A DNA stretch of 55,029 nt from Lentilactobacillus rapi DSM 19907 = JCM 15042 (lineage in GTDB: Bacteria > Bacillota > Bacilli > Lactobacillales > Lactobacillaceae), in contig NZ_AZEI01000022.1 of assembly GCF_001436255.1 (NCBI RefSeq), positions 119,880-174,908 on the forward strand. Reading direction: 5' to 3'. Both the position numbers and the translations under genes were made by a program. A model generated the notes under the pieces. That model did not search any database. It was not told the origin of the DNA and saw only the letters and a program-made list of their open reading frames with translations. Positions 973-44,287 of this stretch are shown here, piece by piece (the stretch's first letter is position 1; each line of letters opens with the position of its first letter).

Positions 973-3235
973 GAATCGCACTCCTAACCTTTTTAGTTGC
1001 GTCAACGATATTTCGTAGACTCTCGAACGCTTCATCTTCAGAACGCGTCTTCAAACCACAGTCAGGGTTAATCCAGATTTTTTCAACGGGTAATTTTGAA
1101 ACCAACTGCTTGATTAAATCTTCAACTTCTTGTTCTGATGGGATTCGAGGTGAATGAATATCGTAAACACCGGGACCAACTTCTGTTTGGAAGTTCGCCG
1201 CAACTAATTCATCAATCAAGGTAAAGTCCGCCCTGGAAGCTTCAAACGAAATGACATCGGCATCCAAAGCATCAATTGCCTTGATAATGTCACCAAATTC
1301 GCTGTAACACATATGCGTATGAATCTGGGTACTTGGTTGAACCTTGCTGTGAACAAGCCGGAATGCCGGCACAGCCCAGTCAAGGTATTCAGAGTACCAG
1401 TTGGATTTACGGAGTGGTAAGTTTTCCCGCAAAGCTGGCTCATCAATTTGGATAATCTTAATGTCATTCTTTTCCAAATCAAGGACTTCATCTTGAAGCG
1501 CCAACGCAATTTGGGTGACCGATTCCTTGGGGGTAACGTCTTCTCGAGGGAATGACCAGTTGAAGATGGTTACGGGTCCGGTGAGCATTCCCTTAACAGG
1601 TTTGTCAGTTAAGTTCTTTGCAAAAACGGACGCTTTGACGGTGATTGGGGCTGTTCGGTTGATATCGCCCCAAATGATTGGTGGCTTGACCCCACGAGTG
1701 CCGTAGGATTGAACCCAACCGTTTTGAGTGAAGACAAAGCCGTCCAGCTTTTCGCCGAAGTACTCGACCATGTCGTTACGTTCGTATTCACCATGAACCA
1801 GTACATCCAAGCCAAGATCTTCTTGAATTTTGATAATTCGGCGAATTTTGTCTTCGTTAAATTGATCATACTGTTCACGGGTAATTTCACCCTTACGCAA
1901 TTTTGATCGGTTTTGCCGAACGTCCTTGGTTTGGGGGAATGAACCGATCGTTGTGGTTGGCAGGATTGGCAGATCAAATTCCTTTTTCTGAATGACTTCT
2001 CGCTCGCTTCGTTTTGGCAAGCGGGTATAATCTGCATCAGTCAACTTGGCAATTCGCTCATGAACCGCTTCTTTATAAGGATGCTTGACGTTCTTAAAGA
2101 GGGCGTCATTTTTATCCAAAGCGGCCTGACCATCTGCCTCATCACGATAAATGTTATCCAATTCCTTAATTTCAGCCAGCTTTTCAATGGCGAAGGCCAA
2201 GTGTTGGTGCACATCGGCAGGCAGCTTGGTTTCGTCGGCAGCCGTGTAAGGAACGTGAAGCAGGGAAGTCGAACTACTGAGGACGATTGTCGCATCGGTA
2301 TGAAGGCCATTTAAGAAAGCGATCGTCTTAGCGTAATGATTTCGCCAAATGTTTTTACCATTGACAATGCCGGCAAATAAGACTTTGTCAGCTGGAAAAC
2401 CATTTTGCTTAACTAATTCGGCGTTGTAGCAGCCTTCAACGAAGTCTAGGCCAATGCCATCAAAATCGAGGCTGGTGACATCATGATAAACATCCCGAAG
2501 ATCGCCAAAGTAGTTTTGAAGGAGGACCTTAACCGTCCCTTTGTTGGCTAAAATTGTCTGATAGAGTTTGTCGAACAATTGCTTTTCAGCAGCATCAACG
2601 TCAAAACTCAAGGCTGGTTCGTCAATTTGAACCCATTTAACGCCTTGTTGACCAAGCTTTTGCAGCACTTGGGAATAAGCGGCTGCCAATGTATCAGTAA
2701 AATCAGTTGGCTTGGCGCCATCAATAAACCTGCTTAATTTTAACAAGGTATATGGTCCGGTGATGACCGCCTTTGCGTTGATTCCGAGCTTGAGGGCCTC
2801 ATCAACTTCATTAAATAATTTGTCACCAACCAATTTGACATCGGTATCCTTGGAAAATTCAGGGACGATGTAATGGTAATTGGTGTTGAACCACTTCTTC
2901 ATTGGGAGGGCTTTAACCGTTTCGGATCCCCGTTGGTACCCACGCGCCTGGGCAAAGTATTCATCAAGTGGCGATAGATTCAATTGTTTGTAGCGGGCAG
3001 GAACGATGTTCAGTAAATTAGCAGTATCAAGAACCCCATCAAAGAATGAAAAGTCACCAGCTGGAATCAAATCGATTCCGGCCGCTTGTTGCGCTTGCCA
3101 GTGATTCTGCTTGATCTCGTCAGCCGTTTTTAGAAGTGCGGCTTGGTCGATCTTGTTCTTCCAATAGTGTTCCGTTGCAAATTTTAATTCGCGGTGATGC
3201 CCGATCCGGGGAAATCCAATAATTGTGGTTGTCAT
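950..3235 (-). CDS. metE: cobalamin-independent methionine synthase
   Basis: Transfers the methyl group of 5-methyltetrahydropteroyltriglutamate to homocysteine, giving methionine without vitamin B12. The 761 residues match the usual two-barrel MetE length. The N-terminal barrel begins with IIGFPRIGHHRELKFA. The C-terminal catalytic barrel carries the zinc ligands: HTHMCYSEF (His and Cys) and NPDCGLKTR (Cys), with IQIDEPALRE in between. The start is supported by AGGAGGG just before the ATG. It lies 114 bp after luxS; a weak stem (TCTCA/TGAGA followed by TTTT) right after the luxS stop may thin out readthrough. Upstream luxS supplies homocysteine and downstream metF supplies the methyl donor, so the three genes form one methionine recycling unit. 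Confidence 0.97.
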   Translation of the reverse strand: MTTTIIGFPRIGHHRELKFATEHYWKNKIDQAALLKTADEIKQNHWQAQQAAGIDLIPAGDFSFFDGVLDTANLLNIVPARYKQLNLSPLDEYFAQARGYQRGSETVKALPMKKWFNTNYHYIVPEFSKDTDVKLVGDKLFNEVDEALKLGINAKAVITGPYTLLKLSRFIDGAKPTDFTDTLAAAYSQVLQKLGQQGVKWVQIDEPALSFDVDAAEKQLFDKLYQTILANKGTVKVLLQNYFGDLRDVYHDVTSLDFDGIGLDFVEGCYNAELVKQNGFPADKVLFAGIVNGKNIWRNHYAKTIAFLNGLHTDATIVLSSSTSLLHVPYTAADETKLPADVHQHLAFAIEKLAEIKELDNIYRDEADGQAALDKNDALFKNVKHPYKEAVHERIAKLTDADYTRLPKRSEREVIQKKEFDLPILPTTTIGSFPQTKDVRQNRSKLRKGEITREQYDQFNEDKIRRIIKIQEDLGLDVLVHGEYERNDMVEYFGEKLDGFVFTQNGWVQSYGTRGVKPPIIWGDINRTAPITVKASVFAKNLTDKPVKGMLTGPVTIFNWSFPREDVTPKESVTQIALALQDEVLDLEKNDIKIIQIDEPALRENLPLRKSNWYSEYLDWAVPAFRLVHSKVQPSTQIHTHMCYSEFGDIIKAIDALDADVISFEASRADFTLIDELVAANFQTEVGPGVYDIHSPRIPSEQEVEDLIKQLVSKLPVEKIWINPDCGLKTRSEDEAFESLRNIVDATKKVRSAIHEPNGVI

Positions 3236-3349: not shown

Positions 3350-3826
3350 CTAGTCGACAACGTGTCTTTCGAATGGGTCATCAGAAATTCCCTTAGCTAG
3401 AATATCTTTGCTCCATTCCTTGGCTGAGAATAATGAGTGGTCACGGTAGTTTCCGCAGCTATACTTGTCGGTTCCTTGAACGTCCTTCCATTGGATGTCG
3501 TTGGCGATTTCTTCAAGTGAACCTTTCAGGGCTTTGGCAACTTCTGTGGTGCTGTGCTTACCCCAAGTAATCAAATGAAAACCAGTTCGGCAGCCAAATG
3601 GTGAGCAGTCAATCACACCGTCGAGACGGTCACGAAGCAAGCCGGCTAAGAGATGTTCAATCGTGTGTAAACCGGCAGTTGGAATCGCGTTTTGGTTTGG
3701 TTGAACCAGTCGTAAGTCGTAGTTTGAGATAACGTCGCCTTTTTGACCAGTTTCCTCAGTAATCAAACGAACGTAGGGTGCTTTAACCTTTGTGTGATCC
3801 AATGTAAAACTTTCAACTTTTGCCAT
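3350..3826 (-). CDS. luxS: S-ribosylhomocysteine lyase (LuxS)
   Basis: Cleaves S-ribosylhomocysteine to homocysteine and the AI-2 precursor DPD, so it serves both the activated methyl cycle and autoinducer-2 production. The 158-residue protein has the metal-binding HTIEH motif (His54, Glu57, His58), the third ligand in SCGNYRDHS (Cys124) and the catalytic-type Cys in FGCRTGFH (Cys79). I chose the ATG at 3826 (MAKVES...), the usual LuxS N-terminus, preceded by AGGAG about 12 bases upstream; an ATG-less extension to 3862 is open but lacks a ribosome site. It is the first gene after the T-box leader, so its expression should rise when tRNA-Met is uncharged. Confidence 0.96.
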
Positions 3827-3918
3827 GATAGTGTCAATCTCCTTAAAATTTATTTGATACACTGTTATTTTAACGCGTGCTAAGAATCATAAAAACCCTT
3901 CCAGAAACTTTTGACCAA

Positions 3919-4215
3919 ATAAAAAAGCATCCGCCCCTTACACCAGAAAATCTGATTAAGGGGCGAATGCTTCGCTGTACCACCCTGAATTCGTATTATT
4001 CTCACAAATAATACCTCAAAAAGTACCATGATCGATACTCGGCGATATAACGGTCGCACCCGACAACTCAAGCGTGAACTTGAATGCCGCTAATCAGAGT
4101 TCATCTTCACCAACGTATCAGCTATCCTTTCCCATCATCCGGATTCTCTTTGTGCTTGATTAGTTGGCTACTCTTCTCTTCAGAGCTTTGCTTTTTGAAC
4201 TAGCATTAAAATTTA
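3919..4215 (-). promoter_or_regulatory. Methionine T-box leader upstream of luxS-metE-metF
   Basis: Read on the minus strand, the leader contains the T-box core AATTCAGGGTGGTACAGCG (3973-3991), which pairs with the acceptor end of uncharged tRNA. It is followed by a GC-rich terminator (3921-3970). In the Stem I region, a helix closed by CTAATCA/TGATTAG leaves an internal loop that contains AUG (4102-4104) at the specifier position. AUG as the specifier fits tRNA-Met and the genes downstream. Family knowledge: uncharged tRNA stabilises the antiterminator and permits readthrough. The specifier assignment is from hand folding, so it is likely rather than certain. Confidence 0.92.
3921..3970 (-). 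terminator. T-box intrinsic terminator
   Basis: On the minus strand the arms GCATTCGCCCCTTA and TAAGGGGCGGATGC form a strong stem followed by TTTTTT. It is the terminator half of the T-box switch; the T-box core just upstream can pair with its 5' arm to form the antiterminator. Confidence 0.9.
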
Positions 4216-4520: not shown

Positions 4521-5066
4521 TTAAGTTTTCCAGCGTTTGAAATCAACTTCCACGATTTTGTTAACGCCTAAGCCAACAATTCTCGCCGGATTTCCAACTG
4601 CAGTGGTTTTGGGCGGGACATCAACCAAGACCACCGCGCCGGCGCCGACTTTGCTGAAAGCCCCGATGGTAATGTTGCCGAGGATCTGGGCATTTGCGCC
4701 CAGGAAGGCCCCCTGTTCAACATGGGGATGGCGGGGACCGAAGACAGTTGTTCTTGCACCCAGGGTGACGCCGTGCAAAATGGTAACATCATCTTCAACG
4801 ATTGCGGTTGAGCCAATGACCACGCCAACCCCGTGATCGATAAACACCCGTTTGCCGATGGTGGCTTCAGGAGAAATCGAGATCCCGGTGCTGTGAGCTG
4901 CATGCTGGCTGATCAGACTGGCGAGGGTGAAGAAGCGCCTTAACACCAGAAAGTGGGCAATTCGGTACCAGAATAGCGCGCGGATTCCGGGATAGGTTAG
5001 AAGGACTTCGGTCAGACTGTGCGCCGCTGGATCACGCTTGAGAATGGAGTGGGCTGTTTGAAACAT
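4521..5066 (-). CDS. cysE: Serine O-acetyltransferase
   Basis: Acetylates serine with acetyl-CoA to O-acetylserine, the substrate of the CysK-type enzyme encoded two genes upstream. The short (181-residue) protein has a helical N-terminus, then a left-handed beta-helix of hexapeptide repeats (ISPEATIGKRVFIDHGVG, ILHGVTLG, AQILGNITIGAFSKVGAG) ending in VGNPARIVG. The catalytic-type His is in IDHGVG. Two in-frame ATGs lie two codons apart; GAGGAG sits at best distance from the inner one (5066), though 5072 is possible. It overlaps the end of the ctl gene, so translation is probably coupled. It is the last gene of the cysK-ctl-cysE unit. Confidence 0.93.
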   Translation of the reverse strand: MFQTAHSILKRDPAAHSLTEVLLTYPGIRALFWYRIAHFLVLRRFFTLASLISQHAAHSTGISISPEATIGKRVFIDHGVGVVIGSTAIVEDDVTILHGVTLGARTTVFGPRHPHVEQGAFLGANAQILGNITIGAFSKVGAGAVVLVDVPPKTTAVGNPARIVGLGVNKIVEVDFKRWKT

Positions 5067-6219
5067 GGTCATCGCTCCTCTCCAAAGCGGCGAATCCAGC
5101 TTTCAGGTCAGCCAGTAAATCTTGCTGATCTTCTACGCCAACGGATAGTCTGATCAATTCATCTTGAATGCCATTCTTTAACCGGATTTCGCGGGGAATT
5201 GCCCCGTGGGTCATCAAAGCTGGAATTTCAATGAGACTTTCAAGCGCCCCTAAGCTTTCCGCTAGGGTAATGATTTGCAGGTGCTCGACAAATTGTTTTG
5301 GATCCAGCCCCGGTTGTAACTCAAAGGAAATCATTGCGCCAAATCCGTGCATTTGTTTGCGGGCAATGTCGTAATCCGGATTGTCAGGATTGCCCGGGTA
5401 GTAAATTTTGCTGACAAGTGGTTGGTGGGAGAGATAGTCAAAGATGGTTTCAGCGTTTGCTAAATGGGCGCGCATTCGGAGCGAAAGGGTCTTAATGCCG
5501 CGTTGGAGCAGCCAACTTTCTTGTGGGGCCAAGATGCCGCCGATGGCATTTTGCAAATAGCCAATTTGTTCGCCTAGCTTTTCATCTTTGGTGACGACCA
5601 AGCCGGCGATTACGTCGCTGTGGCCGCCAAGATATTTAGACGCACTGTGGAGAACAATATCAACTCCCAGCTCCAATGGCCGTTGAACATACGGGGAAGC
5701 AAAGGTATTATCGATAATGCTTAATAGATTGTGTTCTTTTGCAATATTGGCGATGGCAGCAATATCGGTTACCCGGAGTAGTGGATTGGTTGGGGTTTCG
5801 AGGTAGATTGCTTTGGTTGCTGGTGTGATTGCCTGTTCAACTGCCTGCAAATCCCGGGTGTCAACGACGGTGAACGTCATCCCAAAGCGTTTGAGCACGG
5901 CATCGATTAATCTAAACGTGCCGCCATACACATCGTTGCCAACGATAAAGTGATCACCAGCTGAAAAGAGTGAAAAGACCGTATCGATTGCAGCAGACCC
6001 CGAAGCAAACGCAAAGCCATTCGTGCCGCCTTCAAGATCGGCAATTAATTTTTCCACTGCCTCTCGGGTTGGGTTGCCGGAACGGGAATATTCATATTGA
6101 TTCTCGCCAATTTTGTTTTGGCGGAAGGTTGATGCCATATAAATTGGCACAGACGTTGCGCCGGTTGTTGCGTCTTCACTGATGCCGCCATGTAATAATT
6201 TCGTATCAAATTTCATCAT
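5032..6219 (-). CDS. Cystathionine gamma-lyase/beta-lyase/gamma-synthase family PLP enzyme
   Basis: A 395-residue Cys/Met-metabolism PLP enzyme. Visible landmarks are YEYSRSGNPTR (43-53), SGSAA (73-77), ETPTNPLLRV (141-150), the PLP Asp in IIDNTFASP, and the Schiff-base lysine in HSASKYLGGHSD (Lys195). Members of this family make cystathionine or split it toward homocysteine or cysteine; motifs alone do not settle which. Between a CysK-type gene and cysE, and behind a cysteine-rich leader peptide, cystathionine gamma-lyase activity (reverse transsulfuration, as in the lactic acid bacterial cysK-ctl-cysE clusters) is the most likely role. GAGG stands six bases before the first ATG; a second ATG follows directly. 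Its 3' end overlaps cysE. Confidence 0.9.
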   Translation of the reverse strand: MMKFDTKLLHGGISEDATTGATSVPIYMASTFRQNKIGENQYEYSRSGNPTREAVEKLIADLEGGTNGFAFASGSAAIDTVFSLFSAGDHFIVGNDVYGGTFRLIDAVLKRFGMTFTVVDTRDLQAVEQAITPATKAIYLETPTNPLLRVTDIAAIANIAKEHNLLSIIDNTFASPYVQRPLELGVDIVLHSASKYLGGHSDVIAGLVVTKDEKLGEQIGYLQNAIGGILAPQESWLLQRGIKTLSLRMRAHLANAETIFDYLSHQPLVSKIYYPGNPDNPDYDIARKQMHGFGAMISFELQPGLDPKQFVEHLQIITLAESLGALESLIEIPALMTHGAIPREIRLKNGIQDELIRLSVGVEDQQDLLADLKAGFAALERSDDHVSNSPLHSQA

Positions 6220-6240: not shown

Positions 6241-7149
6241 TTAGTCGTAAATATGTTCACTCATGTAACGTTCACTGCTGTCTGGAAATACTGTCACAAT
6301 CCGGCTGTTTTGGGGTAAGCGCTCCGCCACTTGTAAGCTGGCTGCCAGGGCGGCACCACTTGAACTGCCAACAAACAGCCCTTGGGTTCTCGCGAGTTGT
6401 TTCACTTGGGAAAAGGCGGCCTGATCGGGGATGGTCAAAGTTTGATCAATTTGGACCTCCTTGAAGAATGGGGGAACGAATTCTACCCCGATGCCTTCGG
6501 TGCGATGGGGATGAGCCGGGCCGCCGTTTAAAATCGATCCCTCTGGTTCGACCACGATTGTTTGGGTTGCTGAATTTTGCTCTTTTAGATATTTGGCAAT
6601 TCCAGCGAAGGTGCCTCCGCTGCCAGCCCCCGCCACAAATGCAGTGATGGGTTGGCCTAAGTCTTCGATGAGTTCGGGTGCAAGGGTGTGGTAATAGGCT
6701 GCCGGGTTGGCTGGATTTTCAAATTGCATCGGAACATAACTATTTTCGATGTTGGCGGCAATGTCTCGCGCCTTCTTGATCGCGCCTTTGATTCCCAATT
6801 CACTCGGCGTGTTGATTAACTCCGCGCCCAGCGCCTTCATCAATTGCTGCTTTTCAAAACTAAATTTTTCTGGAACAACTAAAATCGTTCGTAATCCATG
6901 TTGCTGGGTTGTCAAGGCGACGCCAATGCCGGTGTTGCCAGCAGTTGGCTCGATGATTGTGGTGCTGTCATTGATTTTGCCACGGTCAATGCCATCTTGA
7001 ATCATGTATTGACCAAGCCGGTCCTTGATGCTGCCACCAGGATTGAACATTTCAAGTTTGGCGTAGATGTGGCTGTGATTTGGGATATCAATTTGGAGAT
7101 CAATAAGTGGCGTGTGGCCGATGAGTTGTGAAACTGATTGAATTAACAT
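6241..7149 (-). CDS. cysK: Cysteine synthase / cystathionine beta-synthase family PLP enzyme
   Basis: A fold-type II PLP enzyme of 302 residues that joins O-acetylserine with sulfide (cysteine) or homocysteine (cystathionine). The PLP lysine is in [11 protein letters not shown] (Lys42). The phosphate-binding loop is [10 protein letters not shown] and the C-terminal loop is GSSSGAA. The substrate loop reads [10 protein letters not shown] (67-76), where classical CysK has TSGNTG; TAGNTG reminds me of O-acetylserine-dependent cystathionine beta-synthases of the MccA type (from memory). With a cystathionine lyase and cysE downstream and LuxS-derived homocysteine nearby, reverse transsulfuration is plausible. 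It is the first structural gene after the leader peptide; GAGAGGATG precedes the ATG. Confidence 0.92.
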
Positions 7150-7181
7150 GATGTCATCCTCTCAAATGTCAAAATAGATAG

Positions 7182-7219
7182 AAAAAGGGTGCGAAAACTC
7201 AAATGAATTTTCGCACCCT
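7182..7219 (-). terminator. Attenuator terminator in the cys operon leader
   Basis: Minus-strand arms GGGTGCGAAAA and TTTTCGCACCC, a ten-base loop and TTTTT. It lies between the cysteine-rich leader peptide and cysK, only 33 bp before the cysK start, so it must be bypassed for expression of the operon. Confidence 0.85.
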
Positions 7220-7284
7220 TTGCTGAGTTCATGCCCCTGAAAGGCAATTAACTTTTAAGGTCGGTATTCCTCAAAATGTCAATG

Positions 7285-7359
7285 CTAACAGGCCGAACAT
7301 CGCAAAACGCGCGTTGTTCGACAACAGTTATTGATTGCATTAAACATTGATTGAGTCAT
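7285..7359 (-). CDS. Cysteine-rich leader peptide of the cysK-ctl-cysE operon
   Basis: A 24-codon reading frame starting ATG at 7359 with GGAGG seven bases upstream, ending TAG at 7285. It encodes Cys at positions 12, 13, 21 and 24 (all TGT); the second half reads CCRTTRVLRCSAC. Four Cys in 24 codons is far above the usual 1 percent or less. It lies about 23 bases after a predicted transcription start and is followed by an attenuator terminator. Directly after the Cys-Cys pair is a hairpin inside the frame (CGAACA/TGTTCG, inner CGC/GCG; 7294-7320). I infer ribosome-mediated attenuation: scarce Cys-tRNA stalls the ribosome at codons 12-13, alters folding and permits readthrough into cysK. Confidence 0.82.
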   Translation of the reverse strand: MTQSMFNAINNCCRTTRVLRCSAC

Positions 7360-7388
7360 AAGGACACCTCCGAAATTTTGTTGATCAA

Positions 7389-7417
7389 ATCATACTGAAT
7401 TTAGATGACATTGTCAA
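7389..7417 (-). promoter_or_regulatory. Promoter of the cys leader and operon
   Basis: Minus-strand TTGACA (7412-7417), a 17-base spacer and TATGAT (7389-7394). The predicted start near 7382 leaves a short untranslated stretch before the leader-peptide ribosome site. Confidence 0.75.
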
Positions 7418-7481
7418 ATGATATTTTAATTTTTATTTGACACGATTCAGCAGGTTAGTGATTAAAGTCGACTTTAGCGCA

Positions 7482-7510
7482 TTGACAAATTTTAATAATT
7501 TACTCATAAT
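7482..7510 (+). promoter_or_regulatory. Promoter of the GlcD-like oxidase gene
   Basis: Plus-strand TTGACA (7482-7487), a 17-base spacer and CATAAT (7505-7510). It is divergent from the cys leader promoter about 65 bp away. Confidence 0.6.
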
Positions 7511-7566
7511 CAATACCAAATGAGGGGATCCTTGCACTCAAATTAACGATGAAGGTTGGCGACAAG

Positions 7567-8934
7567 ATGTCAGTTAATATTAATGAGTTATCATTACCAG
7601 ATGGTCAGATTGTGTCAGATAATGAAGAAATCAAGAAATTGAGCAGTGATAAATTCACTGAAGCAATTGAAGAAGATAATCAGCCATTAGCAGTTATTCA
7701 GGCGAAGAGCGTTGCCGATGTGCAGGCGGCGGTTAAATTCGCGAACGATAACCGGATCCCGGTTACTGCTCGTGGCGCTGGAACATCAATTGTGAACGGG
7801 TCAGCGGCTGAAAAAGGTGGCTTGATCATTGACCTGACACAACTCAATAAGATATTGGAAATTAATATTCCCAACCAATATGCCATTGTCCAAGCGGGCG
7901 TTTTAAACTCAGATCTTGATGAAGAAGTTCGCAAACATGGGTACTTCTTTTCACCTGATCCTGGTTCCAAGCGGATCAGTTCGGTCGGTGGGAATATCGC
8001 GACCAATGCTGGTGGAATGAGCTCATTAAAGTACGGAACAACGAAGCAATCCGTTGTTGGGTTGCAGGTGGTTCTGGCTGACGGGAAATTAGTAGAATTG
8101 GGTGGCAAAACCTTCAAAAACAATGCCCCTTACGATTTGACCGATTTATTTGTCGGTTCTGAAGGAACGTTGGGAATTATTACCGCGGCAACGGTCAAAT
8201 TACTACCAATTCCGTTTGGAAACCCCGTTACAGGGTTGGCCACTTTTGATAACATGAAGCAATTGAGCATTGGGGTTCAAAATATTTCTGGCAGCGGCCT
8301 CTACCCATCAATGATGGAAGCTTTAAATAAAACGTCGATTGAAGCCTTGGATAATTTGGAAAAGTCCGATTTGGGTAAAGGTGGCGCTGAATCCCTCTTA
8401 ATCTTCCAGTTGGATGTTGCTCCAGCCGGCGCGGTTGACGCTTTGAAGAAAATCTTGACTAAATCGGGAGCATTGCAGGTTAATGTCACCGATGATCCAG
8501 ATTATGCTAAGAAGATCATTAAGATTCGCCAAGATTATTACCAGGCAGAAGCAGCTTATGGGCGCTTGATCGTGGAAGATGTCGCCGTGCCGCTATCCAA
8601 ACTACCAGATTTGGCTGACTTTGTTGAAAAATTACAATTCACGTCTAAAGTGACTGCCTTTTTGGGCGGCCACGCTGGTGACGGTAATTTCCATCCAAAC
8701 TTTGCCGTTTCAAAGGAATATTCAGAAACGCCAGCCGACGTCAATGATGCCATTAATAGAATCTTCAAGTATGTTCAATCCATTGGCGGCACAATTTCAG
8801 CCGAGCATGGGATCGGGGACTTAAAGTACAAGTGGGTATTGCCCCAACTTGGTGAAGATGTGGTTGAGTTGCAACGAAAGGTTAAAGCAGCCTTTGACCC
8901 TAATAATATCTTAAATCCAGGTCGCAAAGTCTAG
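7567..8934 (+). CDS. FAD-linked 2-hydroxyacid oxidase, GlcD-like
   Basis: A two-domain FAD oxidoreductase of the glycolate oxidase GlcD/D-lactate dehydrogenase group, about 455 residues. The N-terminal PCMH FAD domain shows PVTARGAGTSIVNGS, PDPGS and SVGGNIATNAGG, followed by VGSEGTLGIIT. The C-terminal FAD-oxidase domain contains FLGGHAGDGNFHPNF and ISAEHGIGDLK, the usual His and acidic residues of the active site. It probably oxidises a D-2-hydroxy acid such as D-lactate or glycolate; the electron acceptor cannot be told. An ATG at 7549 is also in frame, but the GAGGGG there is 21 bases away, so I prefer 7567. It is monocistronic, with a family A repeat downstream. Confidence 0.85.
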   Translation: MSVNINELSLPDGQIVSDNEEIKKLSSDKFTEAIEEDNQPLAVIQAKSVADVQAAVKFANDNRIPVTARGAGTSIVNGSAAEKGGLIIDLTQLNKILEINIPNQYAIVQAGVLNSDLDEEVRKHGYFFSPDPGSKRISSVGGNIATNAGGMSSLKYGTTKQSVVGLQVVLADGKLVELGGKTFKNNAPYDLTDLFVGSEGTLGIITAATVKLLPIPFGNPVTGLATFDNMKQLSIGVQNISGSGLYPSMMEALNKTSIEALDNLEKSDLGKGGAESLLIFQLDVAPAGAVDALKKILTKSGALQVNVTDDPDYAKKIIKIRQDYYQAEAAYGRLIVEDVAVPLSKLPDLADFVEKLQFTSKVTAFLGGHAGDGNFHPNFAVSKEYSETPADVNDAINRIFKYVQSIGGTISAEHGIGDLKYKWVLPQLGEDVVELQRKVKAAFDPNNILNPGRKV

Positions 8935-44102: not shown

Positions 44103-44126
44103 GAGAATGTCACATAAATTAATCCG

Positions 44127-44200
44127 TGGTCTGGGGTGCTTTAACGGCTGAGATGATACCCATAGAACCTGATACAGTTAGGACTGTCGCAGGAAGACCC
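44127..44200 (+). promoter_or_regulatory. TPP riboswitch (THI element)
   Basis: The aptamer has GGGGTGC, CTGAGATGATACCC, GAACCTGATACAGTTAGGA (split across 44149-44183) and CTGTCGCAGGAAG, the conserved THI-box blocks in order. It lies upstream of tenA and should lower tenA expression when thiamine pyrophosphate is bound. Confidence 0.95.
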
Positions 44201-44207
44201 AAGTGAG

Positions 44208-44287
44208 CTGTTGTTGTGAGAATAGGCGACGGCTGAATCAATGGTGTCATTTCAGAGCAGAGCAGCCCCTCCGCCACAACAGGAGGG
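44208..44287 (+). promoter_or_regulatory. Expression platform sequestering the tenA ribosome site
   Basis: CCCTCC (44267-44272) can pair with GGAGGG (44282-44287), the tenA ribosome site. Upstream CTGTTGTTGTG (44208-44218) can instead pair with CACAACAG (44275-44282). No T-tract follows, so control should be at translation. Pairings are by eye. Confidence 0.6.

Follow-up and report, generated by a model that had tools for sequence, protein, structure and literature searches.

Leader-peptide attenuation is a classical mechanism for which the trp and his attenuators of E. coli are the model cases, and the T-box is a large conserved RNA that binds tRNA directly. Ribosome-mediated attenuation in the Firmicutes is described, in the available portions of two reports, for Rli60 (ilv-leu) of Listeria, where it is supported with mutants (PMC5864092), and for the His leader of hisS paralogues (PMC2965389). 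For cysteine, uORFC-8-2 is a predicted case of ribosome-mediated attenuation that, according to the excerpts of PMC8632094 consulted, lies exclusively upstream of cysS in Rhodobacterales. Cys leader peptides have also been predicted before the cys/cbs operons of Mycobacterium, P. acnes and B. longum (available excerpt of PMC1262725), and the title of Canestrari 2020 presents mycobacterial polycysteine frames as leaderless, cysteine-responsive attenuators. A non-exhaustive search of titles and abstract openings returned no published description of a cysteine leader peptide in lactobacilli. In L. paracasei the conversion of methionine to cysteine depends on the mobile cysK-ctl-cysE operon, a cluster called highly mobile in the title of PMC6200037. 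For this operon in strain FAM18149, the consulted parts of PMC6004538 report no T-box and a terminator region that spans a palindrome, and describe the control mechanism as 'yet to be discovered'.

The stretch of DNA analysed here, 55,029 nucleotides of Lentilactobacillus rapi (hereafter the window), carries cysK, ctl and cysE on its minus strand. The initial annotation had read, ahead of cysK, a promoter, a GGAGG, a 24-codon frame with Cys codons, a hairpin and a terminator, and all of these were confirmed on that strand. Its hairpin at the tandem Cys codons was borne out as P1, which begins inside the last of them (7322, the second base of that codon), and the antiterminator, which had been left unresolved by hand, was resolved in silico and overlaps the 5' arm of the terminator. 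P1, antiterminator and terminator are computed structures throughout. The features of the locus are:

7389..7417, minus strand: putative sigma-70 type promoter TTGACA-17-TATGAT, a consensus match only (11 of 12 bases, 17-nt spacer)
7367..7371, minus strand: Shine-Dalgarno GGAGG of the leader frame
7285..7359, minus strand: leader peptide frame MTQSMFNAINNCCRTTRVLRCSAC, 24 codons, stop TAG, identified as an open reading frame and by conservation in relatives; Cys at codons 12, 13, 21 and 24
7321..7326, minus strand: tandem Cys control codons 12 and 13 (TGT TGT)
7292..7322, minus strand: predicted hairpin P1, competitor of the antiterminator (-15.3 kcal/mol; covariation)
7287..7314, minus strand: predicted antiterminator 5' segment, comprising the P1 inner 5' arm, loop and 3' arm and running towards the stop codon
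7253..7276, minus strand: small hairpin TTTTGAGG/CCTTAAAA within the antiterminator loop
7211..7239, minus strand: predicted antiterminator 3' segment, including the start of the terminator 5' arm
7184..7221, minus strand: predicted intrinsic terminator hairpin (17 pairs, -25.5 kcal/mol), then a U-rich tail
7158..7163, minus strand: cysK ribosome-binding site GAGAGG
6241..7149, minus strand: cysK-type PLP enzyme (cysteine synthase / cystathionine beta-synthase family; PALP), best NCBIfam models below their cut-offs
5032..6219, minus strand: ctl, Cys/Met metabolism PLP enzyme (cystathionine lyase/synthase family; Cys_Met_Meta_PP), best NCBIfam models below their cut-offs
4521..5072, minus strand: cysE, serine O-acetyltransferase, EpsC model above its cut-off
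7549..8934, plus strand: FAD-linked oxidase gene, divergent from cysK, with the leader between the two

Protein family matches agree with the names cysK, ctl and cysE. The cysE start as called lies 41 nt within the end of ctl (5032-5072, minus strand), an overlap that suggests coupled translation. Scanning 7100-7600 for promoters gave 3 against 2.7 expected in shuffles, which is weak evidence alone, and the terminator scan of the same interval gave 1 against 0.4 expected.

To examine conservation we used the best 80 of at least 482 cysK relatives in named genomes. Lactobacillaceae contributed 28 of these 80 loci, spread over 11 named genera plus one MAG called Lactobacillus sp.; two of the 28 sit in a single L. 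dabitei genome. The cysK of the window is 98% identical to an L. dabitei cysK. Our criterion, fixed only once leaders had been seen, was an ATG frame of 8-59 codons with CC within the first ~20 codons and, after it, a hairpin below -9 kcal/mol; this combination was present at 28 of 28 Lactobacillaceae loci versus 0 of the 52 others. The frame without the hairpin occurred at 1 of those 52, and dinucleotide shuffles gave frame and hairpin in 5 of 1400 cases and the frame alone in 89 of 1400. All 28 Lactobacillaceae loci have CC or CCC in a short ATG frame ahead of cysK. Matches to the leader DNA were found in 11 of 24 genomes of the genus, and a close cysK is present in exactly these 11.

We then used a covariance model, R1, of 57 positions, which takes no account of the reading frame, although these same leaders went into building it. 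In a sample of 397 Lactobacillaceae genomes it matched 97 places in 87 genomes and 14 of 40 genera, and a cysK protein search of the same sample (E <= 1e-70) found 112 places in 109 genomes. An R1 match lay 91-472 nt upstream on the same strand at 78 of the 112. Reading the remaining 34 revealed 29 with a Cys leader missed by R1 and one (L173) cut by a contig end; at L176-L179, where cysK is 39-43% identical to the query, no such leader was seen by eye, and L176 and L179 contain unrelated CC-containing frames. With L173 cut and L176-L179 distant, the leader therefore precedes all 107 of the close cysK copies (at least 61% identity) that could be tested, 78 by R1 and 29 by reading. The frame itself was read in 30 fetched R1 loci and was at the expected position in 28; L099 (= L088) and L118 failed the position filter, and L118 was entered in the leader collection described below. 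Among 395 Lactobacillales genomes R1 matched 13, all of them in Lactobacillaceae, a count that does not show absence outside the family since the filters were strict and divergent leaders escape R1 (29 of 107 within the family).

For the structural analyses 118 loci were offered, 10 were not entered, and the remaining 108 gave 85 distinct leaders. Entry required frame and terminator, a rule itself shaped by the leaders. L153 and L173 lacked the two together (L173 being cut by the contig), L131, L133, L135 and L136 have CFC, and L109, L124, L125 and L126 failed the cysK-start pattern. The Cys runs of the leaders comprise 180 TGT and 50 TGC codons in 11 different runs, a synonymous variation that is no conservation test alone, since a run was by definition made up of Cys codons. 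The check on relatives proposed at the outset thus had a positive outcome: frame and Cys codons are kept, and the stem persists through compensatory changes.

We considered whether the frame might encode a functional Cys-rich micropeptide, for example metal-binding or redox-active, with regulation separate from it. The Cys content, up to 7 residues in some leaders, and a C-terminal RCSAC conserved in one group speak for this, but the peptides range from 15 to 41 residues with unrelated N-termini, and the RCSAC part is replaced in other genera while P1 persists, so that we regard a micropeptide as scarcely credible.

Covariation was examined on alignments A1 (31 of 34 leaders, three near-identical ones dropped), A2 (10 of 12 group-2 leaders, L026 and L030 left out) and A4 (43 of 57 chosen leaders); no pair counts were taken from A3 (20 leaders). 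Because the 14 leaders with the most different P1 were left out of A4, this alignment favours the P1 structure. On it 87.7% of P1 cells are paired, covariation is 0.529 versus at most 0.166 in slid versions, and both sides have changed in 9 of 10 pairs, a number reached by 11 of 500 shuffles. On A1 the P1 covariation is 0.444 versus at most 0.158 in slid versions, and P1 is of -9.2 kcal/mol or stronger in all 85 distinct leaders.

Visual inspection of L018, from Loigolactobacillus, gave the first sign of the antiterminator: GCGUCUUACGCGA and UCGUGUAAGGCGC pair there at 13 of 13 positions. In the window the duplex of the 5' and 3' segments is predicted at -30.4 kcal/mol, with 1 of 200 shuffles as strong, and the median over the 85 leaders is -27.5 kcal/mol. 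At most 10 of 200 shuffles were as strong in 77 of the 85 leaders and at most 2 of 200 in 63, leaving 8 weak leaders whose duplex strength more than 10 of 200 shuffles match. When 3' segments were exchanged among 47 dereplicated leaders, the mean went from -27.4 for the own pairing to -19.3, and 0 of 10000 permutations were as strong, a contrast that may owe something to relatedness and composition. In 85 of 85 leaders the antiterminator takes up at least 4 of the first 10 bases of the terminator, a count without a control. On A2 the main antiterminator helix is paired in 93.1% of cells and the outer helix in 73.3%. Covariation of both helices is 0.243 (2 of 500 shuffles as high) versus at most 0.124 in slid versions, a slid contrast that is inflated because the structure came from the first row of A2. 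Two further measures of the antiterminator on A2 do not rise above shuffles: 132 of 500 shuffles have as many pairs with two-sided changes, and 270 of 500 have as many pair types. P1 and terminator together are paired in 93.9% of A2 cells with covariation of 0.284 versus at most 0.132 in slid versions, and their pair types on A2 were not above shuffles (324 of 500). At the level of the aligned sequences, P1, antiterminator and terminator covary. A single change runs across all three in L022 and L029, possibly as one event, both being Companilactobacillus.

These results bear on the palindrome GGGTGCGAAAA/TTTTCGCACCC, which could instead be a DNA operator or other protein-binding site, the frame being incidental. 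PMC6004538 quotes Liu et al. 2012 as having put forward a palindrome like it as a possible regulatory motif. In the parts consulted, PMC6004538 itself takes the palindrome as a rho-independent terminator region, and in our leaders a U-rich tail comes after the stem. The stem differs between leaders by paired substitutions, something a fixed operator would have no need of, and it covaries with P1 and the antiterminator. An operator would also leave the Cys frame unexplained, and we consider it highly improbable.

We favour the reading that a ribosome-mediated transcription attenuator sensing cysteinyl-tRNA controls cysK-ctl-cysE, and judge it very probable. The frame and its Cys codons, the three competing helices with their joint conservation, and the recurrence of the leader before other apparent cysteine-supply genes are what sequence and computation show; we infer that the leader is translated with stalling, that the helices switch in the cell and that tRNA-Cys is the signal. 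When cysteine is plentiful, the ribosome would pass the tandem Cys codons, reach the stop codon and cover the 3' side of P1; the terminator would then form and RNA polymerase would stop before cysK. When charged tRNA-Cys is short, the ribosome would stall at Cys 12 or 13 and mask the outer 5' arm of P1, leaving the inner arm, loop and 3' arm free. The freed parts would pair with the stretch running into the terminator 5' arm, and this antiterminator would allow transcription of cysK-ctl-cysE. The features expected of a leader-peptide attenuator are present: as judged from sequence, an apparently translatable frame with several codons for the end product, preceded by a Shine-Dalgarno and with its Cys codons conserved; an intrinsic terminator ahead of the first structural gene in 35 of 35 leaders; and, by computation, an antiterminator that stalling would free and that would exclude the terminator. 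A translational version of leader control, acting by masking of the Shine-Dalgarno, seems less likely because the distance from terminator to cysK varies, from 24 to 228 nt over 35 leaders.

Switching was examined by folding RNA of nascent length, its 3' end in the terminator loop, after removal of all nucleotides as far as the front edge of the ribosome. This edge was taken to lie 13 nt from the first A-site base, an assumed value that was not adjusted to the data, and any RNA behind the ribosome was left aside. The antiterminator exceeded 0.5 in 83 of 85 leaders with the ribosome at the first Cys codon, in 75 at the second, in 45 at the last and in 0 at the stop codon. It also did so in 43 of 85 leaders with no ribosome (0.86 in the window); since in these leaders nascent RNA without a ribosome already prefers the antiterminator, P1 must win kinetically, by forming first. 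In complete leaders with a stall at the first Cys codon the terminator exceeded 0.5 in 76 of 85 and the antiterminator in 8, and at equilibrium the complete leaders folded alike whether stalled or free. The terminator thus wins in nearly all states at full-length equilibrium, even when the ribosome is stalled, and the attenuation model therefore needs kinetic folding.

As controls we folded the E. coli trp and his leaders, for which any upstream pairing was counted, while in the lactobacillus leaders the count stopped 40 nt past the Cys run. Nascent upstream pairing for trp was 0.62 stalled, 0.01 at the stop and 0.00 without a ribosome, so that the no-ribosome result of the window differs from that of trp; for his it was 0.48 stalled, 0.48 at the stop and 0.60 without a ribosome. 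In the complete RNA the terminator stood at 0.95 both for trp, stalled at the first codon, and for his. Because both controls behave alike in this respect, the full-length preference for the terminator is not peculiar to the lactobacillus leader.

The leader is also found ahead of other genes. Nineteen of the 97 R1 matches were not upstream of any cysK found in the protein search: 14 stand before ctl, 2 before an apparent cystine ABC transporter and 2 before an OppA-like gene, and 1 is near a contig end. Protein family searches at these loci covered L134 and L143, the other genes being assigned by eye. The protein of the 14 ctl-type loci reads by eye like the ctl of the window, and ABC transporter genes come next in several. 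In L132 and L134 the leader lies directly before the transporter; the permease, ATPase and binding protein of L134 score best against cystine transporter models, though none of the three reaches the cut-off. In L138 and L143 the leader MCCCCTSRLLRCSAC, or a close form of it, precedes an OppA-like lipoprotein gene, whose product in L143 has a Pfam SBP_bac_5 match, with the OppA model below its cut-off. The same type of leader lies near the contig end in L140. We noted that in L138, L140 and L143 (MCCCCTSRLxRCSxC) four Cys codons directly follow the start, and that four ctl leaders of one genus (L131, L133, L135 and L136) have Cys-Phe-Cys in place of tandem Cys but retain P1. In L130 the leader and ctl are some 1 kb apart, with other sequence in between; in L145 an early stop interrupts ctl, yet the leader and the transporter genes are still there.

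In L. paracasei FAM18149, plasmid pFAM18149.25 (NZ_CP017266.1) has an IS30-like transposase gene on one side of the leader and cysK on the other. This leader ends MSQSMFNAINCCCRTTRFWRCSAC and has a predicted P1, antiterminator and terminator; the PLSDB table, which is incomplete, lists no gene over this leader. PLSDB gave 32 records matching the leader DNA, all Lacticaseibacillus, and 2 of the 32 were read. The consulted parts of PMC6004538 report that expression of the FAM18149 operon is higher in cysteine-deficient than in methionine-deficient medium, with log2 changes of -2.9 to -3.2 for cysE2, ctl1 and cysK2 (methionine-deficient versus cysteine-deficient), that read coverage of the 5'-UTR is high, and that there is also a 3'-UTR antisense RNA. 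The idea put forward initially, that shortage of Cys-tRNA would stall the ribosome and raise readthrough, agrees with these published data, which do not prove it. We think it probable that one homologous leader-peptide attenuator, not a T-box, runs an old, family-wide cysteine regulon in Lactobacillaceae (cysK-ctl-cysE, ctl, a cystine ABC transporter and an oligopeptide-binding protein) and travels on plasmids beside insertion sequences.

The leader might nevertheless sense something other than Cys-tRNA, either general translation arrest or, through the Arg codons of its RxxR part, arginine. Arg codons recur in many leaders, a stall of any cause at the Cys-codon site would free the antiterminator, and the available excerpts of PMC8632094 mention an Arg-Leu-Arg motif of antibiotic-responsive leader peptides. 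The Cys codons are not independent evidence against such sensing, because the leader set was selected for CC. The Arg codons, however, sit inside P1, where they are constrained by base pairing, and their position differs between groups. Most downstream genes indicate cysteine (cysK, ctl and the transporter closest to cystine models), the OppA-like gene being neutral, and FAM18149 expression follows cysteine. Sensing of arginine or of general arrest is thus very unlikely, and cysteinyl-tRNA remains our preferred signal.

We also searched for known riboswitches and T-boxes, which in the window are:

3956..4192, minus strand: T-box leader upstream of luxS (3350-3862), metE and metF (81.8 bits, below the Rfam gathering score of 93)
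44122..44212, plus strand: TPP riboswitch

The initial remark that T-boxes are the rule in lactobacilli fits this genome, in which a whole-genome scan gave 43 T-box matches at E <= 0.001, 10 of them above the family cut-off and one in the window between cysE and luxS. The T-box at 3956-4192 has by eye a Met-like AUG at the specifier position, and the adjacent methionine and cysteine sides thus have a T-box and a leader peptide, respectively. A T-box or other Rfam family at the Cys leader itself was rejected, with no match there in the window or in 20 related loci. In one related genome (L086) a T-box at 1879-2087 (plus strand) lies away from the Cys leader and on the opposite strand.

Our analysis offers a testable answer to a question open in print, the control by cysteine of the mobile cysK-ctl-cysE operon, and gives the palindrome proposed earlier a place within a switch. 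It adds a widespread family of cysteine leader peptides with an intrinsic terminator in the Firmicutes, together with a predicted regulon. If true, this regulon means that organisms rich in T-boxes use another device for one amino acid, and the Met-like T-box before luxS-metE-metF beside the Cys leader before cysK-ctl-cysE makes a case for asking how the device is chosen.

In these organisms T-box leaders, too, use a terminator to adjust amino-acid genes to tRNA charging, as the Cys leader probably does, but no T-box match was found at the Cys leader. With the E. coli trp and his attenuators the Cys leader shares tandem product codons in a leader frame, hairpins and an intrinsic terminator; it differs from them in its proposed sensing of cysteine and in a predicted antiterminator that uses the loop and inner arm of the first hairpin besides its 3' arm. 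In the same folding test the trp leader, like the lactobacillus leaders, switches with ribosome position, whereas his does not separate stall from stop (0.48, 0.48), and without a ribosome trp forms no antiterminator while the window does. Compared by description only, from the consulted excerpts of PMC8632094, uORFC-8-2 resembles our leader in its tandem Cys codons (usually 14 and 15), short frame, two stems and terminal U run, but is found before cysS in Rhodobacterales only. The actinobacterial leaders likewise place a Cys-codon frame before cysteine genes, but according to the available part of PMC1262725 they lack conserved terminator hairpins, and Rho is suggested. The mycobacterial leaderless polycysteine type was ruled out by the GGAGG before the ATG and the strong terminator hairpin. 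Rli60 and the His leader, as described in the accessible portions of PMC5864092 and PMC2965389, are likewise ribosome-mediated attenuators of Firmicutes, but for other amino acids, and the likeness noted here is one of mechanism. We therefore file the lactobacillus leader as a separate, widespread attenuator family with its own controlled genes, within a kind of attenuation that is already known, cysteine versions included.
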